Source: Prevotella sp.
GTDB taxonomy: Bacteria > Bacteroidota > Bacteroidia > Bacteroidales > Bacteroidaceae
NCBI GenBank assembly: GCA_017410365.1
Contig: JAFQQY010000015.1
Location: 124,001 to 188,000, forward strand
Direction of reading: 5' to 3'
DNA length: 64,000 nt
In this document: piece by piece, positions 11,067 through 16,503 of the stretch
How positions within the stretch are numbered: position 1 is the stretch's first letter
Layout: the number at the start of each line of letters is the position of its first letter
The notes under the pieces: generated by a model
What the model saw: only the letters and a program-made list of their open reading frames with translations
Database searches by the model: none
What the model was told of the DNA's origin: nothing
Translations under genes and position numbers: made by a program

Positions 11067-11177
11067 AACATTTTATTTGAAAATCACGGGCATTGGGCAC
11101 AACAATCAGATTTCTATCGAGAAATCATCATTGCAACATCCTTTATCAGCAAGGATATCCATATATACATAAAACAT

Positions 11178-11240: not shown

Positions 11241-11341
11241 GCAATTTTCGCTGTTTTCAACAATCCCATCAGTAGCCATTTGCTTAACCTTTTTGCATGC
11301 AATATTGTATTGCTGCGAATAGAGGAATTAACTGTAAATTC

Positions 11342-11406
11342 CAGTAAGTGGCGTTCTGACTGACAGTTTTTGGCCTACAAACTGCCAGTCAGAACGCCAC
11401 TTACTG
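11342..11406. repeat. Long imperfect hairpin, 21-bp outer arms
   Basis: Arms 11342-11362 and 11386-11406 are exactly complementary over 21 bases (starting CAGTAAGTGGCG). After a single-base bulge on each side an inner 6-bp stem CAGTTT/AAACTG closes a 9-base loop. A hairpin of this length in a gene-free gap is well above chance. Its role is unknown. Confidence 0.75.
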
Positions 11407-11550
11407 AAAATAATCATACAAATAACTATGCTTATTGCAATAGCATAATAAAGAAAAACAACTTATTTTGGACTTTAAGGAGAAATCATCATTGCAACAT
11501 CCATATCCAATAAGGGTACGATTATATATATGTAAAAGACGCAGTTATGA

Positions 11551-12336
11551 TTATGCCTCCACACGCTTTACAATCAATATGCTTATTTCGTAAAGGGCAT
11601 ACATAGGAATTGTGACCAAAACCAGCGTAAATAAATCGGGAGGTGTTATTATTGCAGCAATAATCATTATAACAACTAACGCATGACGACGATATTGCGC
11701 CATAAAGTCTGCATACAGTATTCCCATCTTAGCCAAGAAGAAAGACAAAACAGGAATCTGGAAAACCAAGCCCATCAAAAATGTAAGGGTTGTAAATGTA
11801 GATATATACGAACTTAGATTTATCTGATTTACAACATCTTCTGCCACCTGATACGTACCGAGGAAACGCAGGGAGAAAGGGAATATTACATAATAACTCA
11901 TTATTACCCCTGCTATAAACAAAATGTAAATCGCTATGGTAACATACACAGAATATCTACGCTCATGGTCATATAGTGCAGGAGCAACAAAACGGAATAA
12001 TTCTATAACGATATATGGTGATGCAAAGAGCAAAGCCAAATATACCGATGTTGAAAGATGAGTCATAAACTGACTCGACAATTCCGTATTAATCAGTTGT
12101 ATGCTATATGCATCGAACTTAAAATCAATGTTGAATTGTCGGCACAAATCTTCTATCCATTGATAAGTTGCGAAACCATTATTGCAAGGGGCAAGCAACA
12201 AACCAAATGTAATATCCTTAAAACAGAATATAGCGATGCCCAAAACACACGTTACGCCCAAAATACGGAAAAGCATCTTGCGTAAAACCTCAAGATGCCC
12301 TCCGAATGTTAGCATCTCATTGCTTTGGTTTGTCAT
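11551..12336 (-). CDS. tatC: Sec-independent protein translocase TatC
   Basis: 261 residues with six hydrophobic segments, the usual TatC size. The N-terminus has a variant of the HLxELR signature (GGHLEVLRKMLFRI). Periplasmic loop and helix motifs such as LLFASPYIVIELFRFVAPALYDHERR fit TatC, the inner-membrane receptor for twin-arginine signals. The start overlaps the tatA end by 20 bases, so they are translationally coupled. Last gene of the CXXX-peptide operon, all of whose precursors carry RRxFFKK signals; it is therefore probably their exporter. No TatB is seen here. Confidence 0.95.
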   Translation of the reverse strand: MTNQSNEMLTFGGHLEVLRKMLFRILGVTCVLGIAIFCFKDITFGLLLAPCNNGFATYQWIEDLCRQFNIDFKFDAYSIQLINTELSSQFMTHLSTSVYLALLFASPYIVIELFRFVAPALYDHERRYSVYVTIAIYILFIAGVIMSYYVIFPFSLRFLGTYQVAEDVVNQINLSSYISTFTTLTFLMGLVFQIPVLSFFLAKMGILYADFMAQYRRHALVVIMIIAAIITPPDLFTLVLVTIPMYALYEISILIVKRVEA

Positions 12337-12553
12337 CTTTACAATCCTCTGTTTCTGAATTCACAGTTTCTTCCTCTGCCTTTGCTTCCTCTTGAGGTTG
12401 TGTCACTTCGTTCATTCCTTCTTTGAAGTTCTTCACGCCCTGACCTAATCCGCGCATCATCTCTGGCAATTTCTTACCTCCAAACAGCAGTAGTGCAATG
12501 CCACCGATTAACAGAAGCTCTGTTGTACCAATCATTAATAATATGTTTGCCAT
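12317..12553 (-). CDS. tatA: Sec-independent translocase subunit TatA
   Basis: 78 residues: short N-terminus, one membrane helix (about 5-24: LMIGTTELLLIGGIALLLFG), then the hinge FGGKKLPEMMRGLGQGVKNFKEG and an acidic charged tail. This is the classic TatA/E form. TatA oligomers make the pore through which folded proteins cross the inner membrane. It lies 2 bases after the 91-residue accessory gene and overlaps tatC. Being the only TatA/B-type gene here, it may serve both roles, as in minimal TatAC systems. Confidence 0.95.
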   Translation of the reverse strand: MANILLMIGTTELLLIGGIALLLFGGKKLPEMMRGLGQGVKNFKEGMNEVTQPQEEAKAEEETVNSETEDCKDDKPKQ

Positions 12554-12555
12554 AT

Positions 12556-12831
12556 TTACATTGTTACTAAATAGATTTCACAAGTTTCAAAGTTAATCTC
12601 CCAGTTTCCATTCTCAGCAGACTCCCATTGGTATTTATCTGCCATTCTGTCCCACCAATTCTGAAACTTACTACCTGTTTCACCTAAGTCCTTCACTAAT
12701 TTCTCATATAGTTCAGTATTGTCAGCTGTAACTATTTTCGCCAACTCGTTCAAACCATTGCGACGTTCGAAAAGAATTTGAATTTCATAACTCTCTTCAG
12801 GTGTTACTTGCCCAACTTTCTTTCTATTCAT
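12556..12831 (-). CDS. CXXX-repeat peptide modification system protein (small accessory)
   Basis: 91 residues, soluble, no signal peptide, one Cys. The sequence (start KVGQVTPEESYEIQILFERR, then NGLNELAKIV) matches my recollection of a small conserved protein named in radical SAM CXXX-repeat peptide clusters; its biochemical role is unknown. A leader-binding or chaperone role is only a guess. Its ATG overlaps the stop of the preceding precursor gene (ATGA), tying it to the operon. It sits between the precursors and tatA. Confidence 0.72.
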   Translation of the reverse strand: MNRKKVGQVTPEESYEIQILFERRNGLNELAKIVTADNTELYEKLVKDLGETGSKFQNWWDRMADKYQWESAENGNWEINFETCEIYLVTM

Positions 12832-13202
12832 AAAGAGTCATTTTTAATAATTATCGTATCTGAAATAATTTTAGTGCTTCCACCATGACAGCTCCCTTTG
12901 CAACTTCCACCACATGCTACAGCACACAGTCCTTTGCAACTTCCAGCACAACCACCACATACGTAGCCACACATCGCTTTGCATGTTTGTTGACAACCAC
13001 CCTGACAACCTCTGCATCCCCCCTTGCAACTACCTTTACAGTTCCCCTTGCATGACCCCATGCAACTTCCATTACATCCAATAGTAGGCTTAGTTGGTTC
13101 TGCTTTTATAACAAGTTGCGGAACTACCAATAATGCCATCACAGGTAGAATCCTTGTGAGGCATTTCTTAAAGAACTTTCTTCTTGATTCCAATTTTTCC
13201 AT
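12828..13202 (-). CDS. CXXX-repeat radical SAM target peptide 4, Tat-exported
   Basis: 124 residues. Tat signal ESRRKFFKK, then a hydrophobic stretch ending LVIKA (likely signal peptidase I site). The mature part has 17 Cys, almost all at a strict 4-residue period (CNGSCMGSCKGNC and so on), with two CxxC exceptions. It is rich in Gly, Ser and Lys. Unlike the other three precursors it ends in an 18-residue Cys-free tail (GGSTKIISDT to KNDSL). Predicted substrate of the neighbouring radical SAM/SPASM enzyme. It lies 6 bases after precursor 3 and overlaps the accessory gene. Mature structure and function are unknown. Confidence 0.85.
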   Translation of the reverse strand: MEKLESRRKFFKKCLTRILPVMALLVVPQLVIKAEPTKPTIGCNGSCMGSCKGNCKGSCKGGCRGCQGGCQQTCKAMCGYVCGGCAGSCKGLCAVACGGSCKGSCHGGSTKIISDTIIIKNDSL

Positions 13203-13208
13203 AGAATT

Positions 13209-13556
13209 TCATCTTGATGTATTTGAGCAATCGCCCCAACATGAATTTGAGCAATCACCAGAACATGAATTTTGGCAACTATTAACGCAACCCTGAGAGC
13301 AATTAGTACTACAGTATGTTTGACAAGTACCCTTGCAGGTTCCTTTGCAACCGTCTTGGCATGTTTCTTTGCACGTGTTAAAGCACGTTCCTTTGCAAGC
13401 GTTCGTACAGTCTTGGCATCCGGGATTTATGTCAATCAGAGGGTCATCTTTGTCACATCCTGTAATTACAAATGGTAATGCGAACACTGCCAAAAGTGTA
13501 GAAGAACATTTCCTAAAGAATAACCTTCTAGAAATAATGCTATCAATTCCATTCAT
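13209..13556 (-). CDS. CXXX-repeat radical SAM target peptide 3, Tat lipoprotein
   Basis: ATG at 13556 (MNGIDSIISRR) is preferred over an in-frame TTG at 13568; it gives 115 residues and an AG-rich stretch upstream. Tat motif ISRRLFFRK, hydrophobic core, then the lipobox VITGC, so this copy should be lipid-anchored. After the acidic DKDDPLIDIN come 17 Cys, spaced by four except one initial CxxC, with more Asp, Asn and Thr than in the other precursors. It overlaps the maturase gene by 14 bases. Export by Tat plus lipid modification would place a modified Cys-ladder on the membrane surface. Confidence 0.85.
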   Translation of the reverse strand: MNGIDSIISRRLFFRKCSSTLLAVFALPFVITGCDKDDPLIDINPGCQDCTNACKGTCFNTCKETCQDGCKGTCKGTCQTYCSTNCSQGCVNSCQNSCSGDCSNSCWGDCSNTSR

Positions 13557-14514
13557 TTCGCTTCTCAAAAGGGTCCAAATAGTCTATAGTTGGAATGTTA
13601 ATATCTGGAAGGAAATCTCCATGCTGACGAATTCTTTCTAGTAAAGACTTTGATGCATTTCGCTCTATATGCGACAAAACACACTGCTCATGAGAAGGAG
13701 TGTTGACCTCAAGCGTAGTCTTCCTATTCAGCCAAACACAACGTTTACATTGATATGCATCACAATTGCGACACAGAGGAGAATGAGAGAGTTTGTATAG
13801 TTGCGGATTCTTTATATCCAAACCGTTTTGCAAATCTCCTATGTTGAATTTTGCCTTACCCAATCCGAAATCTTCTTCATCATCTGCAAGGTAGAAAGCA
13901 GGACAGACATAGAACTTGCCATCAGGAGCAAGAGTGATGTTTTCCCAACCTGCATTGCAGTTGTTCATTGAATCAAGCTGCATTCGGTCGGTCAAGATGT
14001 TTAATTGTGGTGATGCGCCAGAGACATAAAGTTGTTCTATTGTTTCTGACAAAGAGTTTAAGCACTCTTTATATTTGTCGAAATCTTCCTTTGTAAAGGT
14101 CTCTACATCAGTAATAACAACATTAATACGGATGGATTTGTCGAGTGCATCCTTAACCAACTGCTGGCAATTGAAAAACAACTCCTTATCTGTTCTTATT
14201 ACATAGGTCGTTTGTTTATCAAAGGTGCAAGCAGCAAAATCTTTCCAACTGTTTATTACAACCACATCTCCGTGCCCTTTGTATTCATACGGTATAATCT
14301 TACTATGGTCAATACTATGAATAGCATCTTTATATTCTTGCGGCAATTCATAATCAGGATAAACAAACTGAATCATCAGATTCTCTTTCATAGCAAAAAG
14401 GATTCCAGCTTTCAAGTCTTCCAATGAAATTGGTTTGCGCTCTGACTTTTTAGTTTCGTAATGACAATACGATGTGCTTGTATCATCCAATAATATTACA
14501 AGGTATTTCAACAT
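13543..14514 (-). CDS. CXXX-repeat peptide maturase, SPASM-like without radical SAM core
   Basis: 323 residues, cytoplasmic. No CxxxCxxC radical SAM motif is present. The C-terminal half has SPASM-like Cys clusters: NNCNAGWENITLAPDGKFYV-CPAF, then PLCRNCDAYQCKRCVWLNR and a final HEQC. These likely bind auxiliary iron-sulfur clusters. The N-terminal half resembles a degenerate barrel (LVILLDDTSTSYCHYE). This fits what NCBI-type annotation calls the CXXX repeat peptide maturase; I infer it pairs with the radical SAM enzyme encoded 4 bases upstream, as a partner or scaffold. The exact reaction is unknown. Confidence 0.8.
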   Translation of the reverse strand: MLKYLVILLDDTSTSYCHYETKKSERKPISLEDLKAGILFAMKENLMIQFVYPDYELPQEYKDAIHSIDHSKIIPYEYKGHGDVVVINSWKDFAACTFDKQTTYVIRTDKELFFNCQQLVKDALDKSIRINVVITDVETFTKEDFDKYKECLNSLSETIEQLYVSGASPQLNILTDRMQLDSMNNCNAGWENITLAPDGKFYVCPAFYLADDEEDFGLGKAKFNIGDLQNGLDIKNPQLYKLSHSPLCRNCDAYQCKRCVWLNRKTTLEVNTPSHEQCVLSHIERNASKSLLERIRQHGDFLPDINIPTIDYLDPFEKRNEWN

Positions 14515-14518
14515 GGCA

Positions 14519-15775
14519 TCAACAGATTACTTCATTAGACATTCGTTTATTCTTTTCAAACTCTTCACGCTCTCCTTCCAACTCTAATTTCCGGAACAAC
14601 TTGTTCCAATAGTAGTTGTTGGCACGCACGCGTGCCTTGTGCATCTTGCATATAGCTGTTGAACGTTGATAAACGGTTGGTGTATCAGCAGCATCATAGT
14701 TTTCACCTTGACACCAAGCACAACCACTTGCCACTTCACAATCAATACATTCTTCTGAATTTTGAGTACATCGGTCAAGGGTTAGGAATGGACGAAGTTT
14801 ATTTTTGTCTATACCATCATGAATATTTCCTATAACCCAAGCCCTTTTATCGCGTAGGGAATACTGTGCAAAGCGAGTACAAGGATAAAAGTTACCTGCG
14901 GCATCTATCGCAAGCATATTCCCTGCACCGCACCAATTTTGATTATGAAGAACACGATCTAAAGGTTTGCCTATATTTTCTGAGAAAAAAGAGCAAGCAT
15001 AATCTGTGTAAAAACCGCCATCAATAATTTCATCTGCCAATTGCATCAATTGCTCTTCAAAGAGTTGGTCATCACCCTCTTGCCATACATCCTCAAACAC
15101 AACATTTATATTTACTTCATGTATTCCAAGAGAATAAAGGTGAAGCACACTTTCTTTTATATAGGGAATATCCGCACTACTTATTGTTACCTTTGTTCCT
15201 GCATTTGGAAATTGACTTTGCCACAAAGGAATATTTTTAACTACATCATCGTATGAACCTTTTTCTTCATGAGGTAACGGCATTTTGCCTTGCTCAATCT
15301 CATGCGTCTTCCAAATGCGATTCAAATCATGCTTTTGTTTTGTACCATCAATAGTTATACCAATGCTAAGATGCTCGCGATTCTTTTTAATAAAATTTTG
15401 GACTTTCTCTGTATCATAATTAATCCCATTTGTTGAAAAAGAAAAGCGATATGAGTTAAACCATTTATGACTGCGATTAAATAATTCAATTTTTATGTAG
15501 TCACAAATTCTATCAATTAAATCTATCTCCAGAAATGGTTCACCACCGATGAAGTCCCAAATAACAGAATGTTCTTTAAATTCTTCAGGATGATCCAGAA
15601 TGTAATCTATTGAACTTTTTGCGACATCCCATGTCATACGTTCTTTAGAATTCTTACCAACAAGGTAACAATATTTACAAGCTAGTTGACAGTCCTTTGT
15701 AACAATAAAGGTTATGTTTTTTGCATTACCAGACTGCCAACTATCTTGATTAGTTCTAATTTCAATATCCTTCAT
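14519..15775 (-). CDS. Radical SAM/SPASM peptide maturase, CXXX-repeat target family
   Basis: 418 residues. Radical SAM cluster Cys29-x3-Cys33-x2-Cys36 (CQLACKYC), SAM-binding GGEPF around residue 77. The C-terminal SPASM region has Cys in NWCGAGN, FYPCTRF, DRCTQNSEECIDCE, SGCAWCQGEN and AICKMH, enough for two auxiliary 4Fe-4S clusters. Such enzymes install thioether or C-C links on ribosomal peptides, often at Cys. Targets are most likely the four Cys-ladder precursors flanking it. It lies 35 bases after precursor 2 and 4 bases before the maturase gene. The AT-rich composition differs from the surrounding carbohydrate genes. The type of bond made cannot be read from sequence. Confidence 0.9.
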   Translation of the reverse strand: MKDIEIRTNQDSWQSGNAKNITFIVTKDCQLACKYCYLVGKNSKERMTWDVAKSSIDYILDHPEEFKEHSVIWDFIGGEPFLEIDLIDRICDYIKIELFNRSHKWFNSYRFSFSTNGINYDTEKVQNFIKKNREHLSIGITIDGTKQKHDLNRIWKTHEIEQGKMPLPHEEKGSYDDVVKNIPLWQSQFPNAGTKVTISSADIPYIKESVLHLYSLGIHEVNINVVFEDVWQEGDDQLFEEQLMQLADEIIDGGFYTDYACSFFSENIGKPLDRVLHNQNWCGAGNMLAIDAAGNFYPCTRFAQYSLRDKRAWVIGNIHDGIDKNKLRPFLTLDRCTQNSEECIDCEVASGCAWCQGENYDAADTPTVYQRSTAICKMHKARVRANNYYWNKLFRKLELEGEREEFEKNKRMSNEVIC

Positions 15776-15810
15776 ATTATAAGGGATGAAAAAATAACAT
15801 AAAAGTATTT

Positions 15811-16137
15811 CTACATATAGTTACTGCTAGTACAACCTCCCATGCATGTTGTCTCACAAGTGCCATAACATGTACCGACACATGTTCCTGTACACGTTCT
15901 ATCACATCCTCCCGAACATGTGTTCTGACAATTTGTTCTACATGCATGATTACTACAACCATAATAACAATCTTGATAACAACTTGCTGCACAACCATAT
16001 TCACAACCCATAGGTGATTTTTCCGCTTTTACAATATTGGGAATATTTGCAGATATAATAACACCTAAAATTGGAAGTATACCTTTTATCGACTTCTTAA
16101 AAAAATCTCTTCTATTATAAATATTTTTCTTTTCCAT
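15811..16137 (-). CDS. CXXX-repeat radical SAM target peptide 2, Tat-exported
   Basis: 108 residues. Tat signal YNRRDFFKK, hydrophobic core, cleavage after IVKA. Mature part begins EKSPMGC and holds 15 Cys at a four-residue period with one five-residue step (CSNHAC). Spacer residues are richer in Thr and Tyr and poorer in Lys than in precursor 1. It ends with the short tail TSSNYM. It lies 51 bases downstream of precursor 1 and 35 bases upstream of the radical SAM gene. Confidence 0.85.
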   Translation of the reverse strand: MEKKNIYNRRDFFKKSIKGILPILGVIISANIPNIVKAEKSPMGCEYGCAASCYQDCYYGCSNHACRTNCQNTCSGGCDRTCTGTCVGTCYGTCETTCMGGCTSSNYM

Positions 16138-16188
16138 AAATTATCATTAAAAATGAGTCATTAATAAATCGCAGAAATTACACCTAAA

Positions 16189-16503
16189 TTAACGATATCT
16201 AGACGATCCTGTACAACCTGTTGCACATGAGTATTTACAAGTATTTCTACATCCTCCCTTGCACCCTCCAGAACATTCATATTTACAAGAGCCCTTACAA
16301 CCTCCGTTACACGTACCTTTGCATGAAGCCATACAACCTCCGCGACATCCATTACATCCCATTGGATCAGCATCAATAGCTTTAGCAATTACAGGAGCAT
16401 TCGCAAGAACAATAGCGCCCAAAATAGGAAGAGCACCTTTCGCAGCTTTCTTAAAGAACTCTCTTCTTGATTGGAGTTCTTCATTCTTTTTATTATTCTC
16501 CAT
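16189..16503 (-). CDS. CXXX-repeat radical SAM target peptide 1, Tat-exported
   Basis: 104 residues; first gene of the operon. Tat motif QSRREFFKK, hydrophobic core, probable cleavage after VIAKA. The mature region starts IDADPMGC and has 13 Cys: one CxxC step, then eleven CxxxC steps. Spacers are Gly, Lys and Ser rich. The tail is TGSSRYR. The near-consensus -7 box TGAATTTG (16538-16545, minus strand) lies about 35 bases upstream, after the terminator of the preceding small transcript, so the operon likely starts here. A metallothionein-like reading is less likely given the Tat signal and the enzyme neighbours. Confidence 0.86.
   Translation of the reverse strand: MENNKKNEELQSRREFFKKAAKGALPILGAIVLANAPVIAKAIDADPMGCNGCRGGCMASCKGTCNGGCKGSCKYECSGGCKGGCRNTCKYSCATGCTGSSRYR

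Follow-up and report, generated by a model that had tools for sequence, protein, structure and literature searches.

A radical SAM CXXX-repeat peptide operon of Prevotella that carries its own TatA and TatC genes

The subject of this report is a nine-gene operon in a 64,000-nucleotide stretch of DNA from a gut-type bacterium, Prevotella sp. (hereafter the window; assembly GCA_017410365.1, contig JAFQQY010000015.1, positions 124,001 to 188,000, from a genome of 3.28 Mb). We propose, with a probability of roughly 0.6, that these genes specify a peptide-modification pathway of the radical S-adenosylmethionine (SAM) type, belonging to the ribosomally synthesized and post-translationally modified peptides (RiPPs), and that this pathway is coupled to its own exporter for folded proteins, a twin-arginine translocation (Tat) system. 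The gene content of the operon, its conservation, the architecture of its leaders, the clade of its TatC and its co-occurrence with tatC are all established from sequence. The nine open reading frames lie on the minus strand between window positions 11551 and 16503, with gaps of no more than 51 bases or small overlaps between them. In the order of transcription they are as follows.

16189..16503, minus strand: precursor 1, 104 amino acids, RREFFKKAAKGALPILG leader, 13 ladder cysteines; TIGR04117 at 44.6 bits, under the cut-off of 50
15811..16137, minus strand: precursor 2, 108 amino acids, RRDFFKKSIKGILPILG leader, 15 ladder cysteines; TIGR04114 at 20.4 bits (cut-off 20)
14519..15775, minus strand: radical SAM/SPASM maturase, 418 amino acids; TIGR04115 at 620 bits (cut-off 350)
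13543..14514, minus strand: SPASM partner lacking the radical SAM motif, 323 amino acids; TIGR04119 at 243 bits (cut-off 150)
13209..13568, minus strand: precursor 3, RRLFFRKC leader, lipobox-like VITGC followed by DKDDP, Leu-Pro displaced (offset 17)
12828..13202, minus strand: precursor 4, 124 amino acids, RRKFFKKCLTRILPVMA leader, 17 ladder cysteines; TIGR04114 at 26 bits (cut-off 20)
12556..12831, minus strand: accessory protein, 91 amino acids; TIGR04116 at 101 bits (cut-off 50)
12317..12553, minus strand: TatA, 78 amino acids; TIGR01411 at 66 bits (cut-off 53.9), PF02416
11551..12336, minus strand: TatC of the operon-borne clade, 261 amino acids; TIGR00945 at 155.6 bits (cut-off 132.7)

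A first-pass annotation of this DNA had described a nine-gene operon on one strand, and every frame is present where it was placed. Its parts list and family names were likewise borne out by NCBIfam profile scores, with all three modification proteins and both Tat proteins above the curated cut-offs. The precursors score less uniformly. Two of the four pass TIGR04114, the model for the repeat target, and the others reach 15 and 10.2 bits. None passes TIGR04117 (44.6, 32.1, 21.5 and 34.9 bits), which is typed as a paralog model and not as a required part of the system. The called start of precursor 3 is a TTG and is uncertain; an ATG lies four codons further on.

The operon is real, widespread and strongly conserved. 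Among 80 named loci, with denominators limited to those that have enough flanking sequence, the partner gene is present in 79 of 80, the accessory gene in all 69 with at least 2.5 kb downstream, and tatC in 50 of the 61 with at least 4.5 kb downstream. An upstream precursor was found at the set threshold in 67 of the 69 loci with 1.5 kb upstream, and the other two (L057 and L096) have one below it. The record titles of the carriers name Bacteroidales or families within it, apart from a few broader titles and three metagenome records (Clostridium, Clostridia and Ruminococcus) whose titles are probably wrong. Isolates that carry the system include Xylanibacter caecicola, X. rarus, Leyella stercorea, Bacteroides congonensis and Bacteroides sp. 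GM023; in the operon of B. congonensis (L079) tatC was not found.

The precursors bear a ladder of cysteines. We assembled 141 precursors from the window and from the best 80 of 505 relatives in named genomes, using as selection criteria a cysteine ladder together with the motif [RK][RK]xF[FLIMV]; phenylalanine at position 3 was thus a criterion, and [LIM]P was not. Precursors in this set hold 8 to 74 cysteines, with a median of 15. The spacing from one cysteine to the next is exactly 4 in 2248 of 2611 cases, against a mean of 10% after shuffling, although the set was picked by a ladder criterion, so that this figure describes regularity rather than discovery and the window's own four precursors weigh more. 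In these, spacings of 4 make up 11 of 12, 13 of 14, 15 of 17 and 14 of 16.

The leaders of these precursors combine a Tat signal with a second conserved element. All four window precursors carry RRxFF followed, as judged by eye, by a hydrophobic stretch, and two arginines stand at the motif in 140 of the 141. When the window genome was searched as DNA for the pattern RRxFF[K/R/N/S/Q/H]K, it was found at four places, all of them in the window precursors, and the reversed pattern was found at seven. Conservation extends past the Tat consensus to give RRxFFKKxxKxxLPILG, with [LIM]P at positions 12-13 in 132 of the 141 precursors and at positions 11-12 in five more. Seven further frames have a readable but different motif, and LP is present by eye in six of them; leaders like that of precursor 3 lie between the partner and accessory genes in three other loci (L066, L055 and L061). 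Four Tat signals of unrelated proteins, met by chance and not amounting to a proper control, lack LP at this place. The leader may be two signals in one, and distant relatives of the operon are informative here.

Five further carriers emerged from 395 genomes of other classes of the phylum. Two belong to a lineage that we denote f27, whose precursors have ladders of 35 and 45 cysteines, RRRFI leaders and, by eye, a lipobox. No tat genes were found in the 20 kb read at the f27 loci, and one tatC lies elsewhere. The other three (lineage f18, loci L148 to L150) have precursors with no twin-arginine motif and only five cysteines. The core is CDGGCGGQCLSGCKDEC in two of them, and the third has nearly the same core. 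In each locus the gene immediately after that of the partner encodes a transporter. The transporter tested, in L148, is an ATP-binding cassette (ABC) exporter of the MsbA type that falls below the MsbA cut-off, and the other two are similar by eye. All three f18 leaders nevertheless have basic residues and KTLPG in a like register when aligned by eye. Because the Leu-Pro is kept in leaders that lack twin arginines and stand beside an ABC exporter, the signals for recognition and export look separable. The simplest reading would be a division of labour, in which maturation depends on the Leu-Pro element and export on the twin arginines.

Co-occurrence across genomes provides a separate view of the link with Tat. 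Of 151 sampled genomes from the window's family, 18 have TIGR04115 above its cut-off and 124 have tatC; in 14 control genomes TIGR04115 never reaches its cut-off. The first-pass annotation had pointed to co-occurrence of the system and tat genes as a check on its proposal, and such co-occurrence is indeed found. Apart from the adjacency noted above for the named loci, 15 of the 18 system-positive genomes carry tatC within the locus itself, and in a sixteenth (G134) it is in a second, partial CXXX cluster. The idea that this copy is an orphan was rejected on inspection of the contig end where it sits (L151), which holds a partner, a precursor, an accessory gene, tatA and tatC and ends before any radical SAM gene. 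Two tatC genes above the cut-off occur in 13 of 18 system-positive genomes versus three of 133 negative ones (Fisher p of 2e-12, uncorrected for relatedness), and two more of the 133 have a second tatC fragment below the cut-off. The presence of any tatC differs less (18 of 18 versus 106 of 133, p of 0.02). Among genomes queried through their named loci, tatC was found in 12 of 12, two of which repeat genomes of the larger sample.

Three genomes (G099, G125 and G085) show only the operon copy of tatC, although they are 97, 87 and 93% complete and a second copy could be missing from the assemblies; two others (G011 and G110) show only a copy outside the operon. In the genus of G099 (g15), G099 is the only one of eight members visible in our lists to have tatC, and in that of G085 (g20) tatC is present in two of eight members, with the lists for both genera omitting some genomes that had no match. 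From this genus pattern, the exporter seems to travel with the peptides into hosts that otherwise have no Tat system.

The operon TatC proteins are also distinctive in themselves. A tree of 43 TatC sequences was built from 16 operon copies, 20 others of our choosing, six from system-negative genomes with two copies, and the second TatC of the window genome. All 16 operon copies and this second copy form one clade with support of 100/100, whose stem measures 1.51 changes per site. This placement rejects the idea that the second tatC of the window genome is of the housekeeping type. The gene forms part of a second tatAC pair on contig C46 (L053:9970-10986, with L053:6878-8263), where its neighbours are a protein of 461 residues that has an RRDFLK signal and a weak likeness to aldo-keto reductases, and what appears by eye to be a 4Fe-4S-type membrane protein. 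The Xylanibacter caecicola genome (L063) has three tatC genes, which stand outside the tree.

These data bear on the possibility that the operon TatA and TatC are not dedicated at all and simply provide a second copy of the general Tat system, serving all substrates of the cell. The C46 pair, of the same clade and adjoining a gene with an ordinary RRDFLK signal, speaks for this alternative. So does the observation that all nine checked operons without tatC have one elsewhere in the genome, which means that the general Tat system can suffice. The same nine rule out the idea that such operons mark hosts without Tat, at least for nine of the eleven operons concerned (L059 and L069 are outside the nine). 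However, the operon TatC proteins group apart on a long stem, their gene adjoins the rest of the operon in 50 of 61 loci, three genomes show the operon copy only, and the RRxFFxK-type pattern of the window genome is confined to the four precursors. A broader pattern, RRx-F-[LF]-K, occurs at 19 places in this genome versus 27 for its reverse and is uninformative by itself, the neighbour of the C46 tatAC pair being the one such place inspected. On balance, we regard a purely general role for these genes as rather improbable. Perhaps the operon-type TatC took over an ordinary Tat site as well in the window host, which would count against strict dedication.

Several other observations also weigh against the proposed pathway and deserve to be considered together. 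Eleven of the 61 named clusters have no adjacent tatC. The second TatC of the window genome falls in the operon clade yet sits beside an ordinary Tat signal, and the f18 precursors have no twin-arginine motif even though each of the three genomes has a tatC. Within the ladder, the rungs (the residues between successive cysteines) have no universal acceptor residue, with D/E in 20%, S/T in 72% and G in 56%. The samples have their own leanings. Sixteen further ladder frames failed the motif and were set aside, the 141 precursors lean to close kin because, besides the window, it was the best 80 of 505 relatives that supplied them, and the genome samples overlap and their counts ignore relatedness. 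The interpretation in the first-pass annotation, that peptides cross-linked into rigid ladders could not be threaded by Sec and are exported folded by a dedicated Tat channel, stands in part. Cross-linking and the inability of Sec to handle the product are inferences. The link with Tat is well supported by comparative genomics, and homologous clusters do not consistently lack Tat signals and tat genes, but Tat is not intrinsic to the family, as the three f18 clusters and the eleven loci without an adjacent tatC make plain. Tat coupling is thus well supported as a genomic fact, and as a function it is likely.

Any chemistry on the ladder is a separate matter. The radical SAM enzyme has CX3CX2C at residues 29-36, seven cysteines placed as in a SPASM domain, and a C-terminal cysteine. 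Its nearest solved structure is 5wgg (E of 5.4e-31), which we take to be the thioether-forming enzyme CteB. The alignment starts only at residue 93 of the 5wgg chain, and the N-terminus of the window enzyme is accordingly too short to include a recognition domain. The C-terminal cysteine, on an otherwise variable tail, is present in 76 of the 80 enzymes from named loci (residue 418 in the window) and in none of five relatives from f18 and f27, one of which has a cysteine two residues before its end. In one operon (L051:8371-10703) two TIGR04115 enzymes are encoded in tandem and share 52% and 70% identity with that of the window.

Among other enzyme families, PapB (NF047865) scores best against the radical SAM enzyme, at 186.6 bits (E of 6.7e-55) versus a cut-off of 340, which is not passed. 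The two share radical SAM and SPASM homology and a repeated four-residue spacing, and PapB joins cysteine to aspartate or glutamate in CX3D, also a spacing of 4, as described in the accessible portions of PMC9413430. It is conceivable on these grounds that the window enzyme makes thioethers of the PapB type. However, D or E is present in only 19.6% of the 2248 rungs, and 20 of the 141 precursors have neither in any rung. Rungs contain S, T or G in 91% of cases, without a fixed acceptor, and the +4 position is occupied by cysteine, the sole residue conserved there, where PapB substrates have Asp/Glu. Because D and E are so scarce, PapB chemistry cannot be the general rule and was rejected as such on rung composition; we consider it highly improbable for this operon.

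A different possibility is that the ladder is a polymer that binds metal ions or Fe-S clusters. The radical SAM enzyme would then alter a few sites or no cysteines, and Tat would be used because loading with metal takes place in the cytoplasm, as with the classical redox substrates of Tat. Export of proteins that already contain their cofactor is a classical task of Tat, precursors with 8 to 74 cysteines mostly spaced by 4 would suit such a role, and the modification enzymes themselves resemble Fe-S proteins. Against this, the four window precursors match no Pfam family at E values up to 1, and the radical SAM enzyme and SPASM partner are paired in 79 of 80 loci and also occur together where the ladder has five cysteines and no Tat signal. 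We judge a metal-binding ladder to be unlikely. A cross-link in the ladder is plausible, and it might take the form of alpha-carbon thioethers or of Cys-to-Cys links. A far bolder idea is that the ladder is wired from cysteine to cysteine in the i to i+4 register of PapB, each sulfur being bonded to the beta-carbon of the next cysteine. The result would be an unbroken, rigid rod of thioethers (dithioacetals) that crosses the membrane folded through a Tat translocase of its own and, in the lipoprotein versions, is displayed at the surface. The conservation of cysteine alone at +4 is compatible with this idea, but we hold it to be a long shot.

The two smaller modification proteins appear to act with the radical SAM enzyme. 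The first-pass annotation had described the partner as lacking the radical SAM motif, and CX3CX2C is absent from the first 140 residues of all 73 aligned partner proteins, including that of the window. Eight cysteines are invariant in all 73, seven in the SPASM part and Cys17 outside it, which is possibly a catalytic thiol or a cluster ligand. Both f27 genomes encode the accessory protein as a C-terminal fusion to the partner (residues 419-507 of 510 in L146). Given this fusion in a distant lineage, the partner and accessory proteins are likely to act together, probably in one complex with the radical SAM enzyme. The accessory protein was not found in the three f18 loci. In Pfam searches at E up to 1, the window accessory protein has no match, HTH_38 is matched by 57 of 73 members (best E of 8.5e-5), and the 25 families shown, out of 33, include no PqqD-type model. 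Our guess is that the accessory protein provides recognition of the leader in trans.

A number of precursors have the appearance of Tat lipoproteins. By a loose site test, a lipobox-like site stands at the end of the signal in 29 of the 141. At least two acidic residues occur at +2 to +6 in 18 of these 29 versus 12 of the other 112, for which a fixed stretch was used. Acidic residues after the lipid-bearing cysteine recall the surface-export signal of Bacteroidetes. This test also assigns such a site to 7 of 13 precursors in the loci that lack tatC, a larger share than the 16 of 92 in those that have it. Precursor 3, whose close relative in L066 occupies the same position in the gene order, is a predicted Tat lipoprotein and is perhaps exposed at the surface.

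Taken together, these features suggest the following pathway. The ribosome would make precursors with a bifunctional leader, of which the Leu-Pro element and nearby basic residues would deliver the chain to the radical SAM enzyme. This enzyme would work alongside the SPASM partner and the accessory protein, the three probably forming a single complex. The CXXX ladder would be modified in the reducing cytoplasm, most likely so that cysteine sulfurs become part of short-range thioether links. It would then fall to the twin-arginine portion of the leader to bring the compacted product to the TatA and TatC of the operon. Most precursors would be cut by signal peptidase and released into the periplasm, and the minority with a lipobox-like site would be lipid-anchored, perhaps facing outward.

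A recurrent neighbour beyond the core operon was sought and rejected, given that the three largest clusters cover 12, 9 and 7 of 80 loci and are too weak. In the largest, precursors are mixed with BACON and weakly Lcl_C-like proteins through a single frame containing both; one SH3/beta-barrel protein belongs to the second. A single open frame at L105:8739-9461 joins a ladder precursor to a stretch with weak likeness to Lcl_C, and a protein near L076 combines such likeness with BACON domains. Past the end of the window tatC lies a 31-base inverted repeat (94% complementary, window positions 11339-11409) that might be a terminator or a small element. It is flanked by a 52-base direct repeat (77% identity, positions 11119-11170 and 11480-11531).

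The families of this system have already been named by NCBI, and the system is known in silico as the CXXX-repeat peptide modification system. The window operon agrees with it in that TIGR04115, TIGR04119 and TIGR04116 are above their cut-offs and two of four precursors pass TIGR04114. It differs in that the accessible model names and descriptions do not include Tat, whereas the window operon adds TatA, TatC and a lipoprotein-type precursor. Its leaders also join Tat and recognition elements, and all four precursors fall under the TIGR04117 cut-off. In the open-access papers searched, we found none that describes the system or its Tat link, a weak form of absence because most subscription journals lie outside such a search. 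The main text of a study on mining Bacteroidales for RiPPs (PMC10352776) contains neither "Tat" nor "CXXX", the accessible portions of the PapB paper cited above do not mention Tat, and PMC10434189, as far as its accessible text extends, concerns other maturases.

The nearest working precedent is the gamma-subunit of quinohemoprotein amine dehydrogenase (QHNDH), in which three thioethers are made in the cytoplasm before translocation by the ABC transporter QhpF (QhpD, QhpE and QhpF; PMC7876137, in the portions accessible). In both systems, radical SAM cross-linking would precede export through an exporter of the same operon. However, QHNDH involves an ABC transporter and an enzyme subunit, whereas the window has TatA/TatC and repeat peptides; the f18 relatives, with their adjacent ABC transporter, are closer to the QHNDH plan than the window operon is. 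The sactipeptide and ranthipeptide maturases CteB and SkfB also have solved structures, and 5wgg is the best solved relative of the window enzyme. CteB is described, in the accessible part of PMC8326336, as having an N-terminal leader-recognition domain. The window enzyme has no counterpart of this domain, and its operon has a separate partner and accessory protein instead.

New in the present analysis are the conserved gene order with tatC, the co-occurrence with tatC, the clade of operon TatC proteins, the fixed Leu-Pro within the Tat signal, the precursors that resemble Tat lipoproteins and the fusion of accessory and partner proteins. RiPP products are usually thought to leave the cell by ABC transporters. 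If the leader indeed unites a maturase-recognition element with a Tat signal and is accompanied by its own Tat genes, it would represent a distinct export route for modified peptides. The operon offers a chance to test whether a modified peptide leaves by the route for folded proteins. Culturable strains open to experiment the questions of what TIGR04115 enzymes do and whether Tat carries cross-linked peptides, and a natural, built-in control is provided by the variants that have an ABC exporter and whose leader lacks twin arginines.

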